The position numbers and the translations under genes are program-made. Positions 16,961-63,611 of a stretch of 64,000 nucleotides of DNA are shown here, one piece after another. The notes under the pieces were generated by a model. It saw only the letters and a list, made by a program, of their open reading frames with translations. It searched no databases and was not told the DNA's origin. Each line of letters starts with the position of its first letter. Position 1 is the first letter of the stretch. The stretch comes from a virus. The stretch is taken from positions 1 through 64,000 of the IMG/VR virus record IMGVR_UViG_3300027749_000080. The stretch is one strand, 5' to 3'.

Positions 16961-17338
16961 ATGGAGCAGCTAAATCAATTTATTGAATATCTTTATACAG
17001 TTGAAGAAAATTCGTCCTCCTTAAACCAAGAGCAGGTAAAAAAACTTCAAATGATTCAGTCAAAGGTTACTGAGATTGTAAATAAAGTTGAATCTATTGC
17101 AACAAATGCAGTCAATCAATTACAAACGGCTCCCCAACCTCAACTAGAATTACAGTTAGCTGAAAATTCAGTATTTAGATTTGGTGAATTTATTGAAATT
17201 AATGAGAAAATTGTACAACGAGGTAAAAACTGGGTTGTTATGAATAAAAAAGGTACTAAAGTTTTAGGTACACATCCAACCAGAGAAAAAGCAGTTAAGC
17301 AGTTACAAGCAATTGAAATAAGTAAAGCTGGCCGCTAA
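16961..17338 (+). CDS. Small protein with K-V-L-G-T-H-P motif, 125 aa
   Basis: The N-terminal half is helical. The C-terminal half has NWVVMNKKGTKVLGTHPT (residues 90-107), then REKAVKQLQAIEISK. This motif of the type W-V-x-x-x-[KS]-x-G-[KT]-K-V-L-G-x-H-x-[ST]-x-E-x-A is often appended to phage head maturation or structural proteins, where its role is unknown. Just before it lies FRFGEFIEINE, which resembles the capsid-targeting F-x-x-F-[IV]-x-E pattern. The stop overlaps the next ATG (TAATG). Confidence 0.78.
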   Translation: MEQLNQFIEYLYTVEENSSSLNQEQVKKLQMIQSKVTEIVNKVESIATNAVNQLQTAPQPQLELQLAENSVFRFGEFIEINEKIVQRGKNWVVMNKKGTKVLGTHPTREKAVKQLQAIEISKAGR

Positions 17339-18102
17339 TGAAATTACAAAGATTCCAACAGTTTATTAATGAGGCCAGGCACTGGTCAGAGGAGCCGTTT
17401 TTATATGGCAGATACGCAGAGGTGTTTACTGATTTTGGTTTTGAAGCAGATATTCCTGACTTGATTCATGCAGTTGAACAAAAATGGACGGACTTAAAGA
17501 ATAGCTATTGGTGGAATCGAGAGCAATGGCGTAAAGATCATTTTGCACTTGATGTAAAGGTACACTCTTGGCCAGAGGCTGATACTGTTAGAGAAATACT
17601 AGGAGAACCTGATATGCCAGAAGAGGCAATTGATGATGAATGGTGGGTATGGATGAATGACACACGTGAAGGATTTGTTGACGACCTGTTTAGCCTCTAT
17701 CCATGGATTGATGATATTAATTGGGGAGGTAAAAGCGGCGGCTGGTTATTATTAGCACCACCATTTGATGATGAATCTACCCGAAATGATATTGAAGAGC
17801 GATGTGACGAATATAATAGTGAAAAGCAAGACCTAAAGGAAAATGGAGATTGGGAAAAGGCTGTGGCTATTGAAAATAATCCAAATTTTCAAAGATTAAA
17901 ACAATTAGGAATAGCAAATGAACATAGCGACCTTATTGTGCTAGTCTCGCAGATTGAAGGATTTAAAAACAATTTAACTGGAACTATTGAACAATTAACA
18001 CAATGGGAATCTGATATGGAAGCAATACAAGCTAGAGTTGGTAAATTTGAAGATAATGCAGAAGAATATTTTTATGCATGGTTAAGAAGTAGAGAAGATT
18101 AA
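17338..18102 (+). CDS. Putative packaged head protein with capsid targeting peptide
   Basis: The first residues MKLQRFQQFINEA closely match the N-terminal capsid targeting sequence of T4 internal proteins (MKTYQEFIAEA), which the prohead protease cuts after I-x-E. Cleavage would be after E12 here. The rest (about 240 aa) is Trp-rich and acidic (SWPEAD, DDEWWVWMND, WGGKSGGWLLLAPP) with a helical C-terminus. It shares NFQRLKQLGI with two other small proteins. Predicted to enter the head with the core, be cut, and perhaps be injected with the DNA. The biochemical function is unknown. Confidence 0.8.
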   Translation: MKLQRFQQFINEARHWSEEPFLYGRYAEVFTDFGFEADIPDLIHAVEQKWTDLKNSYWWNREQWRKDHFALDVKVHSWPEADTVREILGEPDMPEEAIDDEWWVWMNDTREGFVDDLFSLYPWIDDINWGGKSGGWLLLAPPFDDESTRNDIEERCDEYNSEKQDLKENGDWEKAVAIENNPNFQRLKQLGIANEHSDLIVLVSQIEGFKNNLTGTIEQLTQWESDMEAIQARVGKFEDNAEEYFYAWLRSRED

Positions 18103-35719: not shown

Positions 35720-36631
35720 TTGTTGAAGAATCATTACCAAACGCTTGGGGTCTCAGAAACCTCAACCCATGACGATATCCGAAAGGCATATCGAAAACTT
35801 GCAACCAAATATCATCCAGATAAAAATGGTGGAAGCTCTGAGGCGGAAGATAAATTCAAAGAAATTGCAGAAGCTTATGAGACCTTAGGTAATGAAGATA
35901 AACGTACAACTTATGATAATTCCAGAAAATTTGGTGATTCACGGAATGCTGATTTTTTTGGTAATTTTGGATCATTTAGAGACTTTTCATTTGGTGGAAA
36001 CAGATCACATGATTTTAGAAACTTAACAATAATGGTTGATAAGTGGGCCACTATTAAGGAATTAATGGATGGAGCTGTATTTGATATACAATATATTGTA
36101 AATAAAACAATTTCAGGCTCGGCAAAATCTGAAAATAAACAGGTTAGGGTTAAAATTGACTTGGCAAATGAAAGTTATCCAATTTCATTTGATAATGGCA
36201 GATATTTAATTACTTTAAAAGTTAGAGGCGGTGGCTCAGGTCAAGAAATTGAAGATTTTGACTATTTGGGTAAAAAAAGAAATTCAGTAGTTACTGGTGA
36301 TTTAATAGTTCGTATAAACATTGATATGTTAGGACTTACCCTTGACCAAAGTGATATTATTCAGGACTTTGAGCTAAGTTTACATGATATATTATTCACT
36401 GAAGAAGTTATCCTGGAAAGCCCAATGGGCAAAAAGTATCGAATTAAATCGTTTAATCGAGATACTCTAAATAATATAACCGTCAAAATACCTAATCAAG
36501 GCTTGCTCTCTGCATTTGGTCACAAAGGAAGCTATGTGTTTAAGATATTGGTTAAAAAGCCAAATTTTTCAAATATTAGTGAAGAAAACTTACAAATTTT
36601 AAAAGACTTGCTGATTGACGTTAATAAATAA
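35720..36631 (+). CDS. DnaJ-like J-domain protein
   Basis: The N-terminus is a J-domain ([19 protein letters not shown], then [13 protein letters not shown] with H32-P-D34), the module that stimulates Hsp70/DnaK. A Phe/Gly-rich linker follows (residues about 75-95, with [15 protein letters not shown]). Two beta-rich domains at the end resemble the client-binding domains of DnaJ class B, including LPL-like KVRGGGSGQ and VIL-type segments. No zinc finger is present. The start codon is TTG (35720) or the next TTG (35723), both unusual. The gene is between the baseplate block and the prohead protease and probably recruits host DnaK for assembly. Confidence 0.85.
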
Positions 36632-36669: not shown

Positions 36670-36680
36670 GTATAAATAAT
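36670..36680 (+). promoter_or_regulatory. T4-like late promoter
   Basis: TATAAATAAT contains the exact T4 late core TATAAATA at 36671-36678 and is 19 bases before the TTG start of the prohead protease gene. Confidence 0.6.
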
Positions 36681-36698: not shown

Positions 36699-38687
36699 TT
36701 GACTACTACTAATATTAAAAGTTTAAACCAACCTGCTATCCCAGAGAATTCAGTGTTTATCATTGAGCATCTAAATGAAGCAGTTACGGTAACTAGAGAA
36801 AACAATGATGTTATTCTTGAAGGTACTGCGGCAGTTTTCGGAGTAATGAATGAAAACAATCGTATTTACGAAAAACAAGAATACTTACCTCATTTAACTT
36901 ACTTAAATGAGAAGATCAAACAACGCAGACTATTTGGTGAACTTGATCATCCACAAAAATTTGATGTTTCGTTAGCTAATGTATCTCACGTAATTGAGGG
37001 ACTTACTTATGATGAACCAACTAATAGTGTAAAAATTAGACTGCGTTTATTAGATACACCATGCGGTAGAATTGCAAAAACCTTGGTTGAAGCCGGTTGT
37101 ACCACTTCAATCTCTTCAAGAGCTGCAGGTAATGTTGCTGAGAATGGAAAGGTTAAATTAGCAAAAATATTCACATACGATTTGGTTGCAGAACCTGGTT
37201 TTGCACAAGCTGCGCTTGGCCAAGTATCTGAAAGTTTGCAAAATAACTATTCTGCAATATTTGAATCACTAGATTCATTAAGAACTACTGCAATCACTAC
37301 CAAGTTAACAGATATTTCTGAAAACTTTGGTTTTGAGGATTCTGTGAAGATTTACAGAATAAATAATCAAGAAATACCAACTAAACAAAATAATACACAG
37401 CAAATGGCTAATGAGTTTGTAACAAAAGAAGAGATGAATCAGTATTCTGAACTGGTTAAAAAGAAATTTTCTTCTCTACAAGAGAATATCTCTAAAAACA
37501 ATAAAGGTCTTCAAAAGATCAGCGAAAATGCAACCGAAGGAGAATCTCCAGTTGTTGCTAAAATGGTAGAATACGTTAACTACTTAGCTGGCGAAATGGA
37601 GCAGTTAGTTGAATACTCTAACTATCTTTCAACAATGTTAAATCAAGGTATTAATTACACTGAGCACGTTGCAGAGAAAGTTAATACTGTAATCGATTAT
37701 TCTGATTACTTAGCAGAAAAAGTAGAAAAGAATATTCAATACTCTGACTATTTAGGAGAGAAAGTTAATCAAAATATTAACTATTCTGAATATATTGCAG
37801 AAAACGTAGAAAAAACAGTTGAATACGCTAACTACATTGCAGAAAACGTAGATAAAGGCATTCAATACACTGAATACGTTGCTGAAAGCGCAGAAAAAGG
37901 AATTCAATTTTCAAATTACCTAGCTGAGAATTTAGATGCAGCAATTAAATACTCTAATTATCTTGGAGAAAACCTTGATCAAGGTATTAAATATTCAGAA
38001 TATATTGCTGAATCATTAAATGAAAAAATCACTCCTTCAGCTTTAACTAAAACTCGTTCTTTACTTGGAGAAGTTAAAAAATTAAACGAAGGTGTAGAAT
38101 TTGAAGTTAATGAAACTTCTTCAGTTGATGATCTAGTTGGAGCAGTTGATGGAATCTTAACTCACATTAAATCAAATTCAGCTAAAGCTGTTTTGGAAAA
38201 CAAATATCCATTCCTAAAATTGTTAAACGAAGGTCGTAAGCAAGCATTCTATAATTTAGATCAAGCTACTAAATCTGCAATTGTTGAAACAATGCAAGGA
38301 GCTATTTACTTTAACGAAGGTGAAGTAGTTAATATTATGGAAGCAGTTCTTAACAAGCAAGTTGAAAACACTCCTAATTATATTAAACTTATGCCAGCTG
38401 CATACAAGCAATTATTTGAAGGTATGACTGATGGAGAGAAAAATTGGATGGCTTCTCAAGCTAATAACTTCACTCTAAATACTTCATATCAAGTTAAGTC
38501 TTTCTGGGATTCTCGCGATTTCAGAGGAATTAATGAAAGAATTGCAACTGAAACAATTATAAATAATAATTCTATTAACGAAAACCAAGGTAAAGAAGGT
38601 TACGTATCGTTAAACCAAATAAACGAAAGTCTACGTGGTTATTCTAATAACTACATGGACGCTCTTAAAAGAAGAGCACAAAATTAA
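36699..38687 (+). CDS. 21: Prohead protease gp21-like fused to a repeat scaffold
   Basis: Residues 1-180 are a gp21-type prohead protease of the herpes assemblin-like fold, with FGELDHPQKFD (H84) and TTSISSRA (S139 and S140, the family's Ser-Ser-Arg motif). T4 uses His85 and Ser140. The rest (about 230-662) is a long helical scaffold-like part containing eleven 14-residue repeats at 290-443. In T4, protease and scaffold (gp22) are separate proteins. The start codon is TTG. The protein is full of hydrophobic-x-Glu sequences (for example LNE at 27-29, and in nearly every repeat), which are likely self-cleavage sites. It lies right before major capsid gene 23. Confidence 0.92.
   Translation: MTTTNIKSLNQPAIPENSVFIIEHLNEAVTVTRENNDVILEGTAAVFGVMNENNRIYEKQEYLPHLTYLNEKIKQRRLFGELDHPQKFDVSLANVSHVIEGLTYDEPTNSVKIRLRLLDTPCGRIAKTLVEAGCTTSISSRAAGNVAENGKVKLAKIFTYDLVAEPGFAQAALGQVSESLQNNYSAIFESLDSLRTTAITTKLTDISENFGFEDSVKIYRINNQEIPTKQNNTQQMANEFVTKEEMNQYSELVKKKFSSLQENISKNNKGLQKISENATEGESPVVAKMVEYVNYLAGEMEQLVEYSNYLSTMLNQGINYTEHVAEKVNTVIDYSDYLAEKVEKNIQYSDYLGEKVNQNINYSEYIAENVEKTVEYANYIAENVDKGIQYTEYVAESAEKGIQFSNYLAENLDAAIKYSNYLGENLDQGIKYSEYIAESLNEKITPSALTKTRSLLGEVKKLNEGVEFEVNETSSVDDLVGAVDGILTHIKSNSAKAVLENKYPFLKLLNEGRKQAFYNLDQATKSAIVETMQGAIYFNEGEVVNIMEAVLNKQVENTPNYIKLMPAAYKQLFEGMTDGEKNWMASQANNFTLNTSYQVKSFWDSRDFRGINERIATETIINNNSINENQGKEGYVSLNQINESLRGYSNNYMDALKRRAQN
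37566..38027 (+). repeat. Eleven 14-residue (42-bp) repeats in the scaffold
   Basis: The period is 42 bases, with unit consensus I-x-Y-S-x-Y-[LI]-A-E-[KN]-V-x-x-x. Eleven consecutive copies can be counted from V290 to K443. Nine of them contain a hydrophobic-[AG]-Glu tripeptide. The DNA copies have diverged, so this is an old protein repeat, not a DNA-level array. Confidence 0.93.
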
Positions 38688-38705: not shown

Positions 38706-40427
38706 ATGGCAACAAAAATTTTCAAAAAATTGAACGACGCTTCAATTAAGGAAACTTGGACCCCAGTTTTAGAAGGTTATGGTGCAAACGTTACAGCTCG
38801 CCCTTGGTTAGTTGACTACGCTCACAATCATGCTATCTTCGATAACGCAGGTTCAATTAATGAATCAAACTCAGGAGTAGCTCCAGGTTTATTCTTACAA
38901 CAACCTGGTTCTATCAGTTCTATTGGTGCAATTAGTTCTCCAACGAGTTCTATGACTCCATTCACTGGTGGTGCTAAAAACGGTTACGGTGCTTCTGTAT
39001 CTGGTTCTGGTGATAAATTCCCAAGCCTTTTACCAGTTGCAATCCAAGTAGCTGCTAAAACTATTGGTTTCGACCTAGTTGGTGTAGTTCCTATGGATTC
39101 TCCAGTAGGTTTCCTACCTTACTTGGATTATGTATACCAAGGTGGTAACATCGACAAGCAATACGAACCATATTTGATCAAGATCACTGGTGCATTGGAA
39201 AATGCTGCAGGTTCTACAGTAAATGGTATCGCAAATGGTTCTAAATTCACAGTAGCAACTCTTCCATTCGCTGAAGGTTCTAACTACGGTGTTAACGAAA
39301 GCAACACTGACCTAGTTCTACAATTCGTTGGTAAATCACGTGTTGATGGTTCTCCAATCTTCAAAGTTATCCTATCTCATGATGGTGGTACTCTTGCTGA
39401 TTACTTTGCAGCTGACGTTGATATTCAACCAGCAAATGCAACTGACGTTTCAGGTACTGCGGTAGTAACTTTCCGTACAGCTGATAACAAAGTTGAATTA
39501 GTTTCTGCTTTAGAAAACCATATTTCTGGTTTTACTTCAGTATCTGACGCTGATTACGCTACATCTGATTTCAATGGTCCTTACATGGGATCTACTGGAT
39601 CTCAAATGGAAGGTATGGCTCGTCAAACAGCTGAATCTTCTAAATTCCGTCAAATGGGTCTTCGTATGTTCACTAAGTTCATCGAAGCAAAAGGAGATCA
39701 AGTTTCTATTTCAGCAACTGTTGAACAAATCCAAGATCTTAACCGAGTTTGGAACTTTGACGTAATCTCTATGTTAGAGAACGTAGCAGTTAACGAATTA
39801 GCTCAATCAATCAACAAAAAGTTAGTTGACCGTGTTCTTAATTTAGGATCAGTTCATGCTACTGCTGTTGAAGGTGTTGAAGGTGCAGGTATCACTACTT
39901 TGGACCTAACTGTTGGAACAACTGGATTTGAGAACATCTCAACTCTACAACGTCGTGTTGTAACTAAAATTCTTGAAATGGCTAACTTGATTTATCATAG
40001 AGGTCGTTTCGGTGCAGGTACATACATCGTTACTAACGGTCGTGTTGCTTCTGCTTTAGCAGATGTAGCTGGTTACTCTTTCGCTCCATTCAATAATGAT
40101 CTTCCATCTACTGCTGGTCAATTGTACCCTGCAGGTAAAGTACATGGTTTAACCATCTACGTTGATCCTAACTTGAAATTCAGCGATAACCGTATCCATA
40201 TCGGTCGTAAAGGCGCTGATGAAGAGCCAGGTGTTAAATTCCTTCCATATATCATGGCAGAGAGTCTTCAAACAATTGCAGAGGGAACTTTCTCTCCGAA
40301 AATTGGTATGAAATCTCGTTATGCTATTACCGAAGCTGGATGGCACCCAGAAACTCAATACATTACTTTGGCTGTAACAGGTCTAGGAGTATTGACTGGT
40401 TCAACTCGCCCTGCTTCTTCTTACTAA
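38706..40427 (+). CDS. 23: Major capsid protein gp23-like
   Basis: A 573-aa protein with the T4 gp23 layout: N-terminal propeptide, then the HK97-type fold. DLVGVVPMDSPVGFLPYLDYVY at about residues 126-147 corresponds to the gp23 motif PMNSPTGQVFALR. The C-terminal part has GTYIVTNGRVASAL and LPYIMAESLQTI plus GMKSRYAI. The propeptide would end at GSINE53/S54, a hydrophobic-x-Glu cleavage site for the protease. PGSISSIGAI (67-76), right after the new N-terminus, recurs in the 520-aa protein at 26135. Codon use is more regular than in the neighbours, as expected for a very abundant protein. Confidence 0.94.
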   Translation: MATKIFKKLNDASIKETWTPVLEGYGANVTARPWLVDYAHNHAIFDNAGSINESNSGVAPGLFLQQPGSISSIGAISSPTSSMTPFTGGAKNGYGASVSGSGDKFPSLLPVAIQVAAKTIGFDLVGVVPMDSPVGFLPYLDYVYQGGNIDKQYEPYLIKITGALENAAGSTVNGIANGSKFTVATLPFAEGSNYGVNESNTDLVLQFVGKSRVDGSPIFKVILSHDGGTLADYFAADVDIQPANATDVSGTAVVTFRTADNKVELVSALENHISGFTSVSDADYATSDFNGPYMGSTGSQMEGMARQTAESSKFRQMGLRMFTKFIEAKGDQVSISATVEQIQDLNRVWNFDVISMLENVAVNELAQSINKKLVDRVLNLGSVHATAVEGVEGAGITTLDLTVGTTGFENISTLQRRVVTKILEMANLIYHRGRFGAGTYIVTNGRVASALADVAGYSFAPFNNDLPSTAGQLYPAGKVHGLTIYVDPNLKFSDNRIHIGRKGADEEPGVKFLPYIMAESLQTIAEGTFSPKIGMKSRYAITEAGWHPETQYITLAVTGLGVLTGSTRPASSY

Positions 40428-40545: not shown

Positions 40546-40911
40546 ATGAGCAATTCTGTTTTAAACTACTCACAATTTCTTTTAGAAAAGAAAGCAATCA
40601 ACCAAGAAATGGCTGAATTACCTAAAGGTAAAGATTCAAAATCTAACACTACTGTAAAACCAGCAATGTCTGAACTTCCAAAAGGTAAAGGTAAAGGTAT
40701 TAGCAAATCAGTAAAACCTGAAATGGCTACTCTTCCTAAAGGAAAAGGTAAAATGATTGGCAAATCAGTAGATACGAAAGTTTCTAAATTACCTACAACT
40801 AAAGGTTCTTCACCTAAAAAATCAGTAGACTCTAAAATGTCTAAATTGGTAATTAAAGGTAAAGCTATCAGTAAGAAAGTTGAGCCTAATATGGCTAAAA
40901 TGCCTAAGTAA
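40546..40911 (+). CDS. Lys-rich repeat protein with capsid targeting peptide, 121 aa
   Basis: It starts MSNSVLNYSQFLLEKK, with F-L-L-E as a likely protease site. The remaining hundred residues are four to five imperfect repeats of about 20 residues built on M-[AS]-x-LPKGKGK-x-[IS]-x-K-S-V. Twenty-eight of 121 residues are Lys, with few acidic residues. The protein is thus very basic and low-complexity, as expected of a DNA-binding internal head protein that helps condense packaged DNA. No homologue is recognised. It is encoded just after the major capsid gene. Confidence 0.78.
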   Translation: MSNSVLNYSQFLLEKKAINQEMAELPKGKDSKSNTTVKPAMSELPKGKGKGISKSVKPEMATLPKGKGKMIGKSVDTKVSKLPTTKGSSPKKSVDSKMSKLVIKGKAISKKVEPNMAKMPK

Positions 40912-40930: not shown

Positions 40931-41236
40931 ATGTCAGATCAAAGAAAACATAAGGTCACGTCCTTTCAGTCGTTCGTTATTCAAGAAAATTCAATCAAGG
41001 ATTTAGTTGGAAAAACTGATGATGAGCAATTGGACTTAGATGATGCTCGTAGTATCGGAAAGAAGATTTCCAAAATGAAAGGTGAAGATCGTAAGAAATA
41101 CGTTGGGATTGTTAATTTCATGGGAGCGTCTTGTAGAATTTACAATGAGATTTGGGCTAACTATAAACCAGTTGATCCATCAACCAAAAAATCAAACCGT
41201 GGAAAAGAATTCCAAGGTGAAAAAGAAGTAGGTTAA
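40931..41236 (+). CDS. Small protein with targeting-like N-terminus, 101 aa
   Basis: The N-terminus has KVTSFQSFVIQENS, an F-x-x-F-[IV]-x-x-E pattern with I-Q-E as a possible cleavage site (after about E18). The body is helical, with DARSIGKKISKMKGEDRKK and a C-terminal Lys-rich tail. No family is recognised. Neighbours are the Lys-rich protein and a tail-type protein, so it probably goes to the head. Confidence 0.75.
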   Translation: MSDQRKHKVTSFQSFVIQENSIKDLVGKTDDEQLDLDDARSIGKKISKMKGEDRKKYVGIVNFMGASCRIYNEIWANYKPVDPSTKKSNRGKEFQGEKEVG

Positions 41237-42882: not shown

Positions 42883-43530
42883 ATGGACATATTTAATGTA
42901 AAACGCCGAGACAATCCTTCAATGGATAATTATATGGACCTAAAGAAACCAGGTTTCGGTGGTCCAAATTCAAAGGAAGACTTTGATAAATCAAAAAGAA
43001 AATCGCTTGAAGGATACCAACGAGTAGTTGACAGAAATGCCGATTTTGAAGGTGGAAATTTCAATCATAATTATGATCCAACGTGGAAAGCAGTAACCCG
43101 CGACCTAATTTCAAGAACTGCAAAGAAAAAACCATTTAATCCAATGTACGCAAAACAAACAATTGCAACAGTTAATGCTGTTGAAGAAGGTACTATCAAA
43201 CGCTTTGAACAATTCGTTAATGAAAACGAAGGTTTTAATATGTTTGCTGAAGCTGAAGACGAAACTCCAGAAATGGAAGAAACTACTCCAGAAATGGAAG
43301 AAGTTGAAGTAGATCAAGAACAAGTAGAAATGCTAATGGCAGACTTCGGAGATGATCTTGAAGAAATGATTGATGAAATCGCTGAAAAAATGGAACTTGA
43401 AAAAGAAGAAGTTTGCGATATTCTATGTGCAGCTATTAAAAAGATGTGCGCTCCTGCTGAAGAAGAGGAAGAAGAAGAAGAAAATCCAGAAGGTGAAGAA
43501 CCTACTGAAGAAGAAGAAACCGAAGAATAA
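42883..43530 (+). CDS. Acidic prohead-core-like protein, 215 aa
   Basis: The N-terminal 100 residues are basic and polar. IKRFEQFVNENEG at about 105-117 matches the capsid-targeting and cleavage pattern (V-N-E). The C-terminal 100 residues are extremely acidic, with runs of Glu such as EEEEEEEENPEGEEP. A basic head, a cleavage motif and an acidic tail suggest a prohead core protein comparable in composition to T4 gp67, but no homology is visible. Length and position (between gp19 and the 117-aa protein) support a head assembly role. Confidence 0.72.
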   Translation: MDIFNVKRRDNPSMDNYMDLKKPGFGGPNSKEDFDKSKRKSLEGYQRVVDRNADFEGGNFNHNYDPTWKAVTRDLISRTAKKKPFNPMYAKQTIATVNAVEEGTIKRFEQFVNENEGFNMFAEAEDETPEMEETTPEMEEVEVDQEQVEMLMADFGDDLEEMIDEIAEKMELEKEEVCDILCAAIKKMCAPAEEEEEEEENPEGEEPTEEEETEE

Positions 43531-59164: not shown

Positions 59165-59737
59165 TTAGTCTTCAATTTCCATAATACTTTCAAGAACTCG
59201 AATAGAGTCAGTTGAGTCATTATGCAAAATACCGGTTCCACCGGCATCAGTCCATTTATTTAGCTTAGTATCAAAATCGTCAATTAGGATATCAAATTCA
59301 TTTCGGGCATATTTCCATTTGTCTTGATCTAAAATAATTCTGGTTTTACTTGTAAAATCTTCAGGTTTAGTAACAGGCTCTTCATCAATGTGAAGGTGTA
59401 GTTTAATCCATTTTGTTTTACCAGCTAAACATTCAGGGCTTCTGCTTGGAGCAGATAGAATAATTGGATCATACTGTTTTAAATAGTCCCATAATTCTCT
59501 ACCATCTTGTGTCCAAGGTAAATCTGCCCAAAAATCTTCTCCTAATTTATCCAGGATTGGCCAAATCGAATTTTTACCATGAAGTTCTTCGTATGCATGC
59601 GGAGAAAGTTTTTCAGGATTTTCTGAAATTTCAGTAAAGCCACGATTAAAGTCTACTAGGACCCCGTCTAAATCACAGAAAATTGTGTATTTTCCGCCTC
59701 TTTTTTCAAAGACAAATTGTTTAAATTTTTTAAGCAT
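59165..59737 (-). CDS. HAD-type 5'-nucleotidase with targeting-like N-terminus, 190 aa
   Basis: The nucleotidase core starts at YTIFCDLDGVLVDF with the catalytic Asp pair D-L-D, as in 5'(3')-deoxyribonucleotidases, followed later by PIILSAPSR and the RIILDQDK/ILIDDF acidic motif IV. The start is set at the internal Met (59737) over 59752 because it gives MLKKFKQFVFEKR, in register with the F-x-x-F-[IV]-x-E head-targeting peptides, and because the longer form overlaps the GroES gene more. The function would be nucleotide dephosphorylation, and the peptide suggests packaging. It could equally be a cytoplasmic enzyme with a chance N-terminus. Confidence 0.78.
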   Translation of the reverse strand: MLKKFKQFVFEKRGGKYTIFCDLDGVLVDFNRGFTEISENPEKLSPHAYEELHGKNSIWPILDKLGEDFWADLPWTQDGRELWDYLKQYDPIILSAPSRSPECLAGKTKWIKLHLHIDEEPVTKPEDFTSKTRIILDQDKWKYARNEFDILIDDFDTKLNKWTDAGGTGILHNDSTDSIRVLESIMEIED

Positions 59738-62885: not shown

Positions 62886-63611
62886 TTAGTGATATTTGTT
62901 TAAAAATTTAGCTGCTGGGTATACTTTTTTAGCAAAAGTTATCCAAGTTGACATAACTTTATCAGCTTCAGGTTGAGAAATTAACTTGGTCTCAATAAAA
63001 GGTTTTAAGTATTCTTCAAATTCCTGATCAAGAGGTACTCTTTTCTTTTTAGCTGATGCATACATACCTGCAACCATTGCTGGAATTTCATCAGCTAATA
63101 AAAAGTAATGATAATCACTTTCAGCACGAGATCTTACTGATTTTGTGGTATTAATAATATGGCCAGTCTTTTTATTTATGCCTTTTTGTAAAAGGTGTTC
63201 AAGTTCATGTCGTATATTATCAATTAATTTATAATTTAATGCTGGATAACATTGAGGTTCCGCATCTGGACTAATATAAAGGACTACTTCAATTTCAGGC
63301 GACTCCGGCTCGTTTGCCTTTGGAATAAATGAATTTGCATCTATTGCAAACCCTTTATTTTCAAAATTAATTACTTCCCAAGGAAGTCCACTAAAATATT
63401 TAGATTTAGCCGGCTCAAATTCTTCAACTCTAACTAACTTAATTGATAGTGTAAATTCAAGTGGGGTATCATATTCAAATTCTTTGGATATTTCTTTACC
63501 TATCTTAACACCTGCAGTTTTCTTAATTACGCTAAATAGATCTTTAGCGAAAGTTGAAGCAAGTGAATCGTATTTTGATTCAAATATAAATTGTGAAAAC
63601 CTTTTTATCAT
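62886..63611 (-). CDS. Putative packaged zinc metalloprotease with targeting peptide
   Basis: It starts MIKRFSQFIFESK, a close match to the T4 capsid targeting peptide with I-F-E as the cleavage site (after E11). The centre has DNIRHELEHLLQ with H135-E136-L-E-H139, the zincin HExxH motif, and a possible third ligand E175 in ADEIPAM. The N-terminal 120 residues are beta-rich. A virion-carried protease that acts after injection, or in head maturation, would fit. It precedes a truncated gene with which it overlaps by 4 bases. Confidence 0.78.
   Translation of the reverse strand: MIKRFSQFIFESKYDSLASTFAKDLFSVIKKTAGVKIGKEISKEFEYDTPLEFTLSIKLVRVEEFEPAKSKYFSGLPWEVINFENKGFAIDANSFIPKANEPESPEIEVVLYISPDAEPQCYPALNYKLIDNIRHELEHLLQKGINKKTGHIINTTKSVRSRAESDYHYFLLADEIPAMVAGMYASAKKKRVPLDQEFEEYLKPFIETKLISQPEADKVMSTWITFAKKVYPAAKFLNKYH

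Follow-up and report, generated by a model that had tools for sequence, protein, structure and literature searches.

A prohead protease of the T4 lineage fused to a predicted head scaffold whose tandem repeats resemble the capsid-targeting tag

In this study, a single open reading frame (ORF) was found to join a prohead protease of the T4 gp21 type to a long helical region that we take to be its own head scaffold, and this region contains eleven repeats whose core resembles the sequence that targets T4 internal proteins into the prohead. The gene lies in a 64,000-nucleotide stretch of viral DNA (hereafter the window), which is contained in an 84,194-base viral contig. Based on the fusion, the repeats and their conservation, the enrichment of N-terminal tags and its co-occurrence with the repeats, the capsid sites and the lineage-matched upstream elements, all of which are observed, we consider it reasonably probable that the tag-like repeats build, fill and finally clear the core of the head. 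New here are the identity of the repeat core [YF]xx[YF][ILV]xE with the capsid-targeting motif of T4, and an invariant methionine at the protease/scaffold boundary preceded by a promoter-like element specific to the lineage. The original prediction, made from the same DNA, had missed both the tag match and the likely nested scaffold-only product.

The fused gene and its protease

The fused prohead protease-scaffold gene occupies positions 36699-38687 of the window on the plus strand, starts with TTG and comprises 662 codons. As originally predicted, the product joins a gp21-type protease with His84 and Ser139/Ser140 to a long helical region; the ORF is confirmed as real, and its first third is the protease. 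Residues 38-149 match Pfam Peptidase_S77 with 39.9 bits (cut-off 27), and the protease part matches the head maturation protease family PHROG 207 at 1.5e-35. The domain (residues about 36-175; 36804-37223, plus strand) was modelled by AlphaFold with a pLDDT of ~80. With this model, Foldseek returned T4 gp21 (5jbl) as the best solved structure (E=1e-7, TM (target) 0.65-0.71), followed by weak matches to herpesvirus proteases (E 0.008-0.03). Additionally, His84, Ser139 and Ser140 are invariant among 46 aligned relatives. Collectively, a profile score above the curated cut-off and a gp21 fold with conserved His and Ser show that the protease part is of the T4 gp21/Peptidase S77 type, and from the substrate motifs it is predicted to cut after L/I-x-E. 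Candidate sites for cleavage between protease and scaffold are, by sequence, VSE (176-178), IFE (187-189) and ISE (206-208).

We infer that the remainder of the protein is the head scaffold. This role rests on position, helicity and architecture because HHalign, run with small reference sets, detected no homology to gp22 or the scaffold of 121Q (probability 0.1-0.6%). Like gp22, the scaffold part is encoded between the protease and the major capsid gene. Many gp21 sites are present by sequence, and the repeat helices are predicted at low confidence. The C-terminal helical domain (38124-38564, plus strand) has a pLDDT of ~80 over about residues 500-620, is conserved in relatives and contains abundant [LIF]-N-E motifs (LNE, FNE and INE). 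The repeats match phrog_2782 and other PHROGs, which are families of unknown function.

Directly 5' of the fused gene lies a DnaJ-type chaperone gene (window 35720-36631). Besides the fusion, second, short copies of the prohead protease without a scaffold occur in LR756501.1 (11437-11793, minus strand) and LR756500.1 (154846-155151, minus strand), with 181 and 135 residues.

Relatives and origin of the fusion

The fusion is general. A contig scan found at least 576 related stretches among viral contigs, 110 of which were read, and tblastn together with the contig scans revealed full-length relatives in huge phages of 462, 634, 636, 642 and 735 kb. Four contigs of 270-271 kb are close relatives of the window (protein ~83% identical) and are permuted copies of one genome; because of this permutation, and because two of them overlap themselves by ~127 bases at their ends, we place the genome of these relatives at ~271 kb. 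The statement that T4 keeps protease and scaffold apart is also correct: in T4-like phages, 121Q and others they are adjacent separate genes before the capsid gene, and the tblastn alignment with 121Q spans both its protease and its scaffold gene.

Fusions without these repeats are present in Bacillus phage SP-15, Listeria phage LIS04 and the Lak phages, in which the same protease is joined in one ORF to a long C-terminal region. In SP-15 and LIS04, the fusion precedes the capsid gene, as in the window, but its helical region lacks these repeats; in the Lak phages (L043, L044), a long acidic spacer rich in Asp, Ser and Glu replaces them. In the protease tree, all fused proteins lie on one side of a branch with support of 91/91, which requires one change; the branch is moderately supported, and the tree contains some long branches. 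It thus suggests that one fusion event is enough.

A predicted nested scaffold product

At the boundary of protease and scaffold stands Met236 (37404-37406, plus strand), which is invariant in the 46-row alignment; a nested product comprising only the scaffold (residues 236-662) is predicted to begin here. The sequence upstream is A-rich (0.57 A, vs 0.41 at other internal Met codons), and Shine-Dalgarno sites are nearly absent from the window (1 of 63 genes). Lineage A, to which the window belongs, shows three dips in synonymous variation: one 5' of the gene, one in the surroundings of Met236 and one close to the 3' end. The mean pairwise synonymous difference is ~0.45 per conserved codon within each of the two lineages compared, A and B.

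Before the fusion gene (36671-36678, plus strand) lies TATAAATA, the T4 late-promoter sequence; this late-promoter-like element occurs in 22 of 29 distinct relatives of the window's lineage, and synonymous variation there is 0.06 against the mean of 0.45. The same element recurs inside the 3' end of the gene (38558-38565, plus strand), promoter-like for the capsid gene, where synonymous variation is the lowest in the gene (0.06); it lies exactly at -127 from the ORF end in those lineage-A relatives that carry it. In many relatives, TATAAATA keeps a constant spacing to the fusion gene and to the capsid gene. As a window-wide signal, it was rejected (6 sites vs 11.9 expected); our interest is limited to these two sites because of their position and synonymous conservation, the count being uninformative. 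The 271-kb relative (L059-L072) has 14 TATAAATA sites, nine of them no more than 150 nt upstream of a start codon, and these nine include three genes whose proteins have targeting-type or variant N-termini.

Around Met236, synonymous variation falls to 0.13-0.17. Here, lineage A has ATAAATA (37359-37365, plus strand), which may be an internal late promoter and stands 45 nt ahead of the boundary ATG. It is TATAAATA minus the first T; all 29 of the 29 distinct lineage-A sequences contain it at this place, and 45,660 nt of these genes hold no further copy. The element of lineage B is GATATATA, which precedes the gene in 29 of 30 sequences and the boundary Met in 24 of 30, and lineage A has none. 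Shared ancestry inflates all these counts, as members of a lineage are not independent, although each lineage does vary internally by the ~0.45 synonymous differences per conserved codon given above. The lineage-matched promoter reading was found post hoc, by following low synonymous variation. Given the invariant Met and the lineage's own promoter-like element before it, a nested scaffold-only product is therefore predicted; on these grounds, it is likely that a late promoter and a start codon inside the gene serve to make the scaffold by itself, as in herpesvirus UL26.5. Such a product, if made, would let a single locus yield scaffold in excess of protease.

Alternatively, only the full-length fusion is made, and the Met and the A/T-rich element reflect constraint on the protein. 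The conservation of the encoded peptide K-I-Y-x-[IV] and the single base by which the lineage-A element departs from TATAAATA are in line with this alternative, which we nevertheless regard as rather unlikely, because the one peptide is written in different synonymous codons in each lineage (Ile-Tyr is ATA-TAT in 30 of 30 lineage-B and 0 of 28 lineage-A sequences), each choice yielding the lineage's own promoter core. Moreover, the rest of the gene has few or no copies of that core, and the depressed synonymous variation of lineage A falls on the site itself.

Repeats of the scaffold region

Residues 290-443 (37566-38027, plus strand) consist of eleven contiguous, in-register 14-residue repeats with the consensus I-x-Y-S-E-Y-[LI]-A-E-N-[LV]-x-x-x, for which long helices are predicted. 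Identity at a lag of 14 residues amounts to 82 matches; other lags give ~27, and no more than 55 were reached in 2,000 shuffles. The repeat array of the original prediction is thus confirmed. Its second observation, a hydrophobic-[AG]-Glu tripeptide in nine of eleven repeats, also holds: [LIV][AG]E occurs in phase in 9/11 repeats, and 7/11 satisfy the strict T4 rule (L/I-x-E).

The T4 tag reads MKTYQEFIAE. Internal protein III of T4 is directed into the prohead by its ten N-terminal residues, of which positions 4 and 7 are important for targeting and positions 8 and 10 for processing; the gp21 cut falls behind L/I-x-E (PMC9026906). All four determinants of this capsid-targeting sequence (CTS), namely Tyr4, Phe7, Ile8 and Glu10, have their counterparts in the repeat core Y-x-x-Y-[LI]-A-E. 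In the window protein, the targeting-type core [YF]xx[YF][LIV]xE occurs 8 times, vs 0.08 in shuffles. The comparison was prompted by the window itself, while the rule tested came from T4. Representative peptides are INYSEYIAENVEKT for a scaffold repeat, MKLQRFQQFINEARHW for a tag and FDNAGSINESNSG for the capsid protein.

Over 1,329 repeat units, Tyr3 is conserved in 94%, Tyr6 in 92%, Leu/Ile/Val at position 7 in 99%, Ala/Gly/Ser at position 8 in 98% and Glu9 in 87%. In the lineage with 12-16 repeats (373 distinct units), Glu9 reaches 99%, and none of the other 13 positions has an entropy as low; position 7 is Leu/Ile/Val. In the window's 11-repeat lineage, Glu9 is conserved in 73% and lost in 2-6 of the 11 repeats; LR756500 keeps it in 6/11 and has lost it in 5/11. 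The repeats line up with gp21 specificity (L/I-x-E) in nearly all relatives. The proposed digestion by the protein's own protease into 14-residue pieces is supported by Glu9 in the 12-16-repeat lineage but weakened by the fact that the site is not in every repeat. Strict 14-mer digestion is not universal, because Glu9 is incomplete in the window's lineage and in LR756500 and because an acidic spacer replaces the repeats in Lak. Nevertheless, self-digestion of the scaffold, giving a self-dismantling core, is plausible from the sites.

The hydrophobic moment of the repeats is greatest at 103 degrees, as for heptads, and AlphaFold models the repeats as two long helices, although with low confidence (pLDDT 40-55). 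We infer a two-heptad register with Ile1/Ala8 at a and Ser4/Leu11 at d, which would place Tyr3, Tyr6 and Glu9 at c, f and b, on the outward face. The repeats could be a structural coiled coil only, with Tyr and Glu serving packing and salt bridges, the scaffold released by a few cuts elsewhere, and the likeness to cut sites and targeting tags incidental. Fourteen residues indeed make two heptads with the moment at the heptad angle, Tyr and hydrophobic positions persist where Glu9 is lost (as in L166), and many other L/I-N-E sites lie outside the repeats. Yet we consider this unlikely, since in the larger lineage Glu9 is the most conserved position, above both tyrosines, and since the same core is enriched at protein N-termini solely in repeat-bearing phages.

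N-terminally tagged proteins

To count tagged proteins, we used a T4-derived rule in which the motif starts at residues 3-10, took gene starts mechanically from the longest ORFs and derived the expected number from the inner density of the motif. Tagged proteins number 4 in the window contig (0.21 expected), 13 in the 271-kb relative (0.79), 19 in the 462-kb phage (1.08; 400 kb counted), 21 in the 634-kb phage (1.76) and 54 in the 735-kb phage (1.49). For these five repeat-bearing genomes, two of which are close relatives, Poisson P ranges from 7e-5 to 3e-63. In contrast, the three genomes without repeats show no excess: Lak has 1 vs 0.74 expected (520 of 541 kb), SP-15 0 vs 0.09 and 121Q 0 vs 0.20 (180 kb). 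LIS04 stands outside this comparison, and T4 is an exception to the coupling, with tags but without tandem repeats.

The tagged proteins carry the CTS determinants near the N-terminus (aromatic residues 4 and 7, Ile/Leu 8 and Glu 10), whereas the scaffold repeats carry the motif internally; examples are MKLKRFTQFVNEA, MIKKYNTYINEG and MKYIKEYEEFILEA. In the window, proteins with CTS-like N-termini are encoded at 17338-18102 (plus strand; MKLQRFQQFINE|A), 59165-59737 (minus strand; MLKKFKQFVFE|K) and 62886-63611 (minus strand; MIKRFSQFIFE|S). Just 3' of the capsid gene, a small Lys-rich protein (40546-40911, plus strand) has the CTS-like NYSQFLLE|K, and another small protein (40931-41236, plus strand) has, by its N-terminal sequence, a relaxed CTS-like SFQSFVIQE|N. 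An acidic protein encoded behind the capsid gene (window 42883-43530) contains an internal tag-like site, KRFEQFVNE|N, and is a candidate core protein like T4 gp67/gp68.

Could the N-terminal tags have nothing to do with the head and serve another purpose, such as protein turnover or delivery to a membrane or compartment? The tagged proteins are mostly of unknown function, which leaves room for this; among ten that were scanned, a NUDIX protein and a phage lysozyme exceeded the cut-off. However, the rule derives from T4's proven head-targeting tag, cut site included, the tags co-occur with the scaffold repeats, and two tagged proteins lie directly behind the capsid gene, so that we hold another purpose to be improbable. 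If tags address proteins to the head, the shared motif would provide a candidate list, readable from sequence, of the proteins that such phages carry in the head and inject.

Capsid protein and cleavage preference

The next gene after the fusion encodes a gp23-type major capsid protein (38706-40427, plus strand; Pfam Gp23 1e-41). Its propeptide is predicted to be cut after SINE, a hydrophobic-x-E site, at Glu53 (nt 38862-38864, plus strand). Read by eye, each of the 28 capsid proteins listed has an N-terminal region that ends with hydrophobic-x-Glu, for instance SINE|S, SLNE|S or QMNE|N. As expected, these sites fit a gp23-type propeptide. Tags and capsid sites have Leu/Ile/Val/Met at P3, often Asn or Lys at P2 and Glu at P1, and together they give an independent picture of the preferences of the protease. 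P2 differs in that the repeats have Ala/Gly while the tags often have Asn/Lys.

Repeat number

Across 73 distinct arrays, the repeat number is 11-16 (11 in 29 arrays, 13 in 23, 12-16 in the rest), with 11 repeats in genomes of ~271 and 462 kb, 12-13 at 634-735 kb and none in the 541-kb Lak phages. The original idea that repeat number sets core length, and with it head size, is very improbable and was rejected on these arrays and the complete genomes: despite a weak positive rank correlation in six complete genomes (rho 0.80, P 0.055), the number hardly changes while genome size varies 2.7-fold, the large genomes all belong to a single clade, and Lak has no repeats. Total protein length correlates with genome size in eight phages (rho 0.83), which are not independent, and was not relied on.

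Proposed mechanism

In the model that we prefer, a scaffold role, cleavage at the repeats, packaging, a partner shared by tags and repeats, and a second product are added to the observations. The repeats would form a long helix with coiled-coil periodicity, two heptads per 14 residues, displaying outward the Tyr-x-x-Tyr-[LIV]-x-Glu that in T4 serves prohead targeting and tag removal. These phages carry the motif as a tandem array within the scaffold and as a single copy at the start of many other proteins. From the gene would come the full-length protease-scaffold and, through the internal promoter and Met236, a larger amount of scaffold alone. Scaffold rods would form the core, and the tagged proteins are proposed to join it because their tags resemble the scaffold repeats. 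After closure of the shell, the protease would cut behind the Glu of the tags, the capsid propeptide, many repeats and the C-terminal sites; the core would then fall into short peptides, and the cargo would be freed. This offers a concrete model in which a core is filled and then cleared without a separate disassembly factor.

More tentatively, and with somewhat less than even confidence, one motif may be brick, address label and cut mark at once, with repeats and tags binding the same partner and with a nested gene. The shared partner would be each other or the protease; the cargo would mimic a scaffold repeat and be released by the very cut that dismantles the core, and the internal promoter would set the ratio of scaffold to protease. 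If this is true, the tags would allow dozens of proteins loaded into the heads of the largest known phages to be read off the sequence.

Comparison with known systems

The system resembles T4 gp21/gp22 in protease family and fold, in the gene order 21-22-23 and in the cut rule L/I-x-E, and it resembles the T4 CTS in the determinants aromatic-x-x-aromatic-[ILV]-x-E. The gp22 scaffold is cut at multiple sites into many fragments (PMC9026906, PMC5694885). In contrast to T4, which has separate genes, a gp22 without a tandem array and few tagged internal proteins, the window-type phages have one ORF with 11-16 tag-like repeats, and a single genome encodes as many as ~54 tagged proteins. In lambda, C/Nu3 likewise combines protease and scaffold in one protein.

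The herpesvirus UL26/UL26.5 pair is a maturational protease-scaffold with a nested in-frame scaffold (PMC12474303). The window gene resembles it in having an N-terminal protease of related fold and a putative C-terminal scaffold in one ORF, and a nested scaffold-only product is predicted for the window gene as well. The fold match is weak, and the passages of PMC12474303 considered describe no tandem cut-site repeats. Similarly, gpO of phage P2 unites protease and scaffold in one protein that cuts the capsid protein and itself (PMC7552001); neither a repeat array nor cargo tags are described in the passages considered. P2 is not a T4-type phage, and gpO is likened to the window protein by its architecture.

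A size of 735 kb was reported as the largest then described (PMC7162821). A scaffold candidate is now available for a T4-related set of huge phages, including one with a genome of this size. Neither a gp21-gp22 fusion nor such repeats were found described in the literature searched; as most subscription journals lay outside the search, novelty is not proven.

Other proteins with scaffold-type repeats

A few separate proteins carry two to four scaffold-type repeats themselves. A small free-standing protein of LR745206.1 (L117, W04; about 460435-460686, minus strand) consists of nearly nothing but scaffold-type repeats (MNYEDYIAESLEKNISYSEYISENL...). In the 735-kb phage, a protein with Gly/Ser-rich repeats (LR756501.1; L116, W02; 619001-622000, about 751-1380 therein, plus strand) has three scaffold-type repeats near its C-terminus and the terminal sequence VYSQEDPYGEEDWSV. 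A DPYGEE[DN]W tail like that of the L116 protein also terminates the short paralogue of the protease at 11.4 kb, and such a sequence lies near the N-termini of two tagged proteins.
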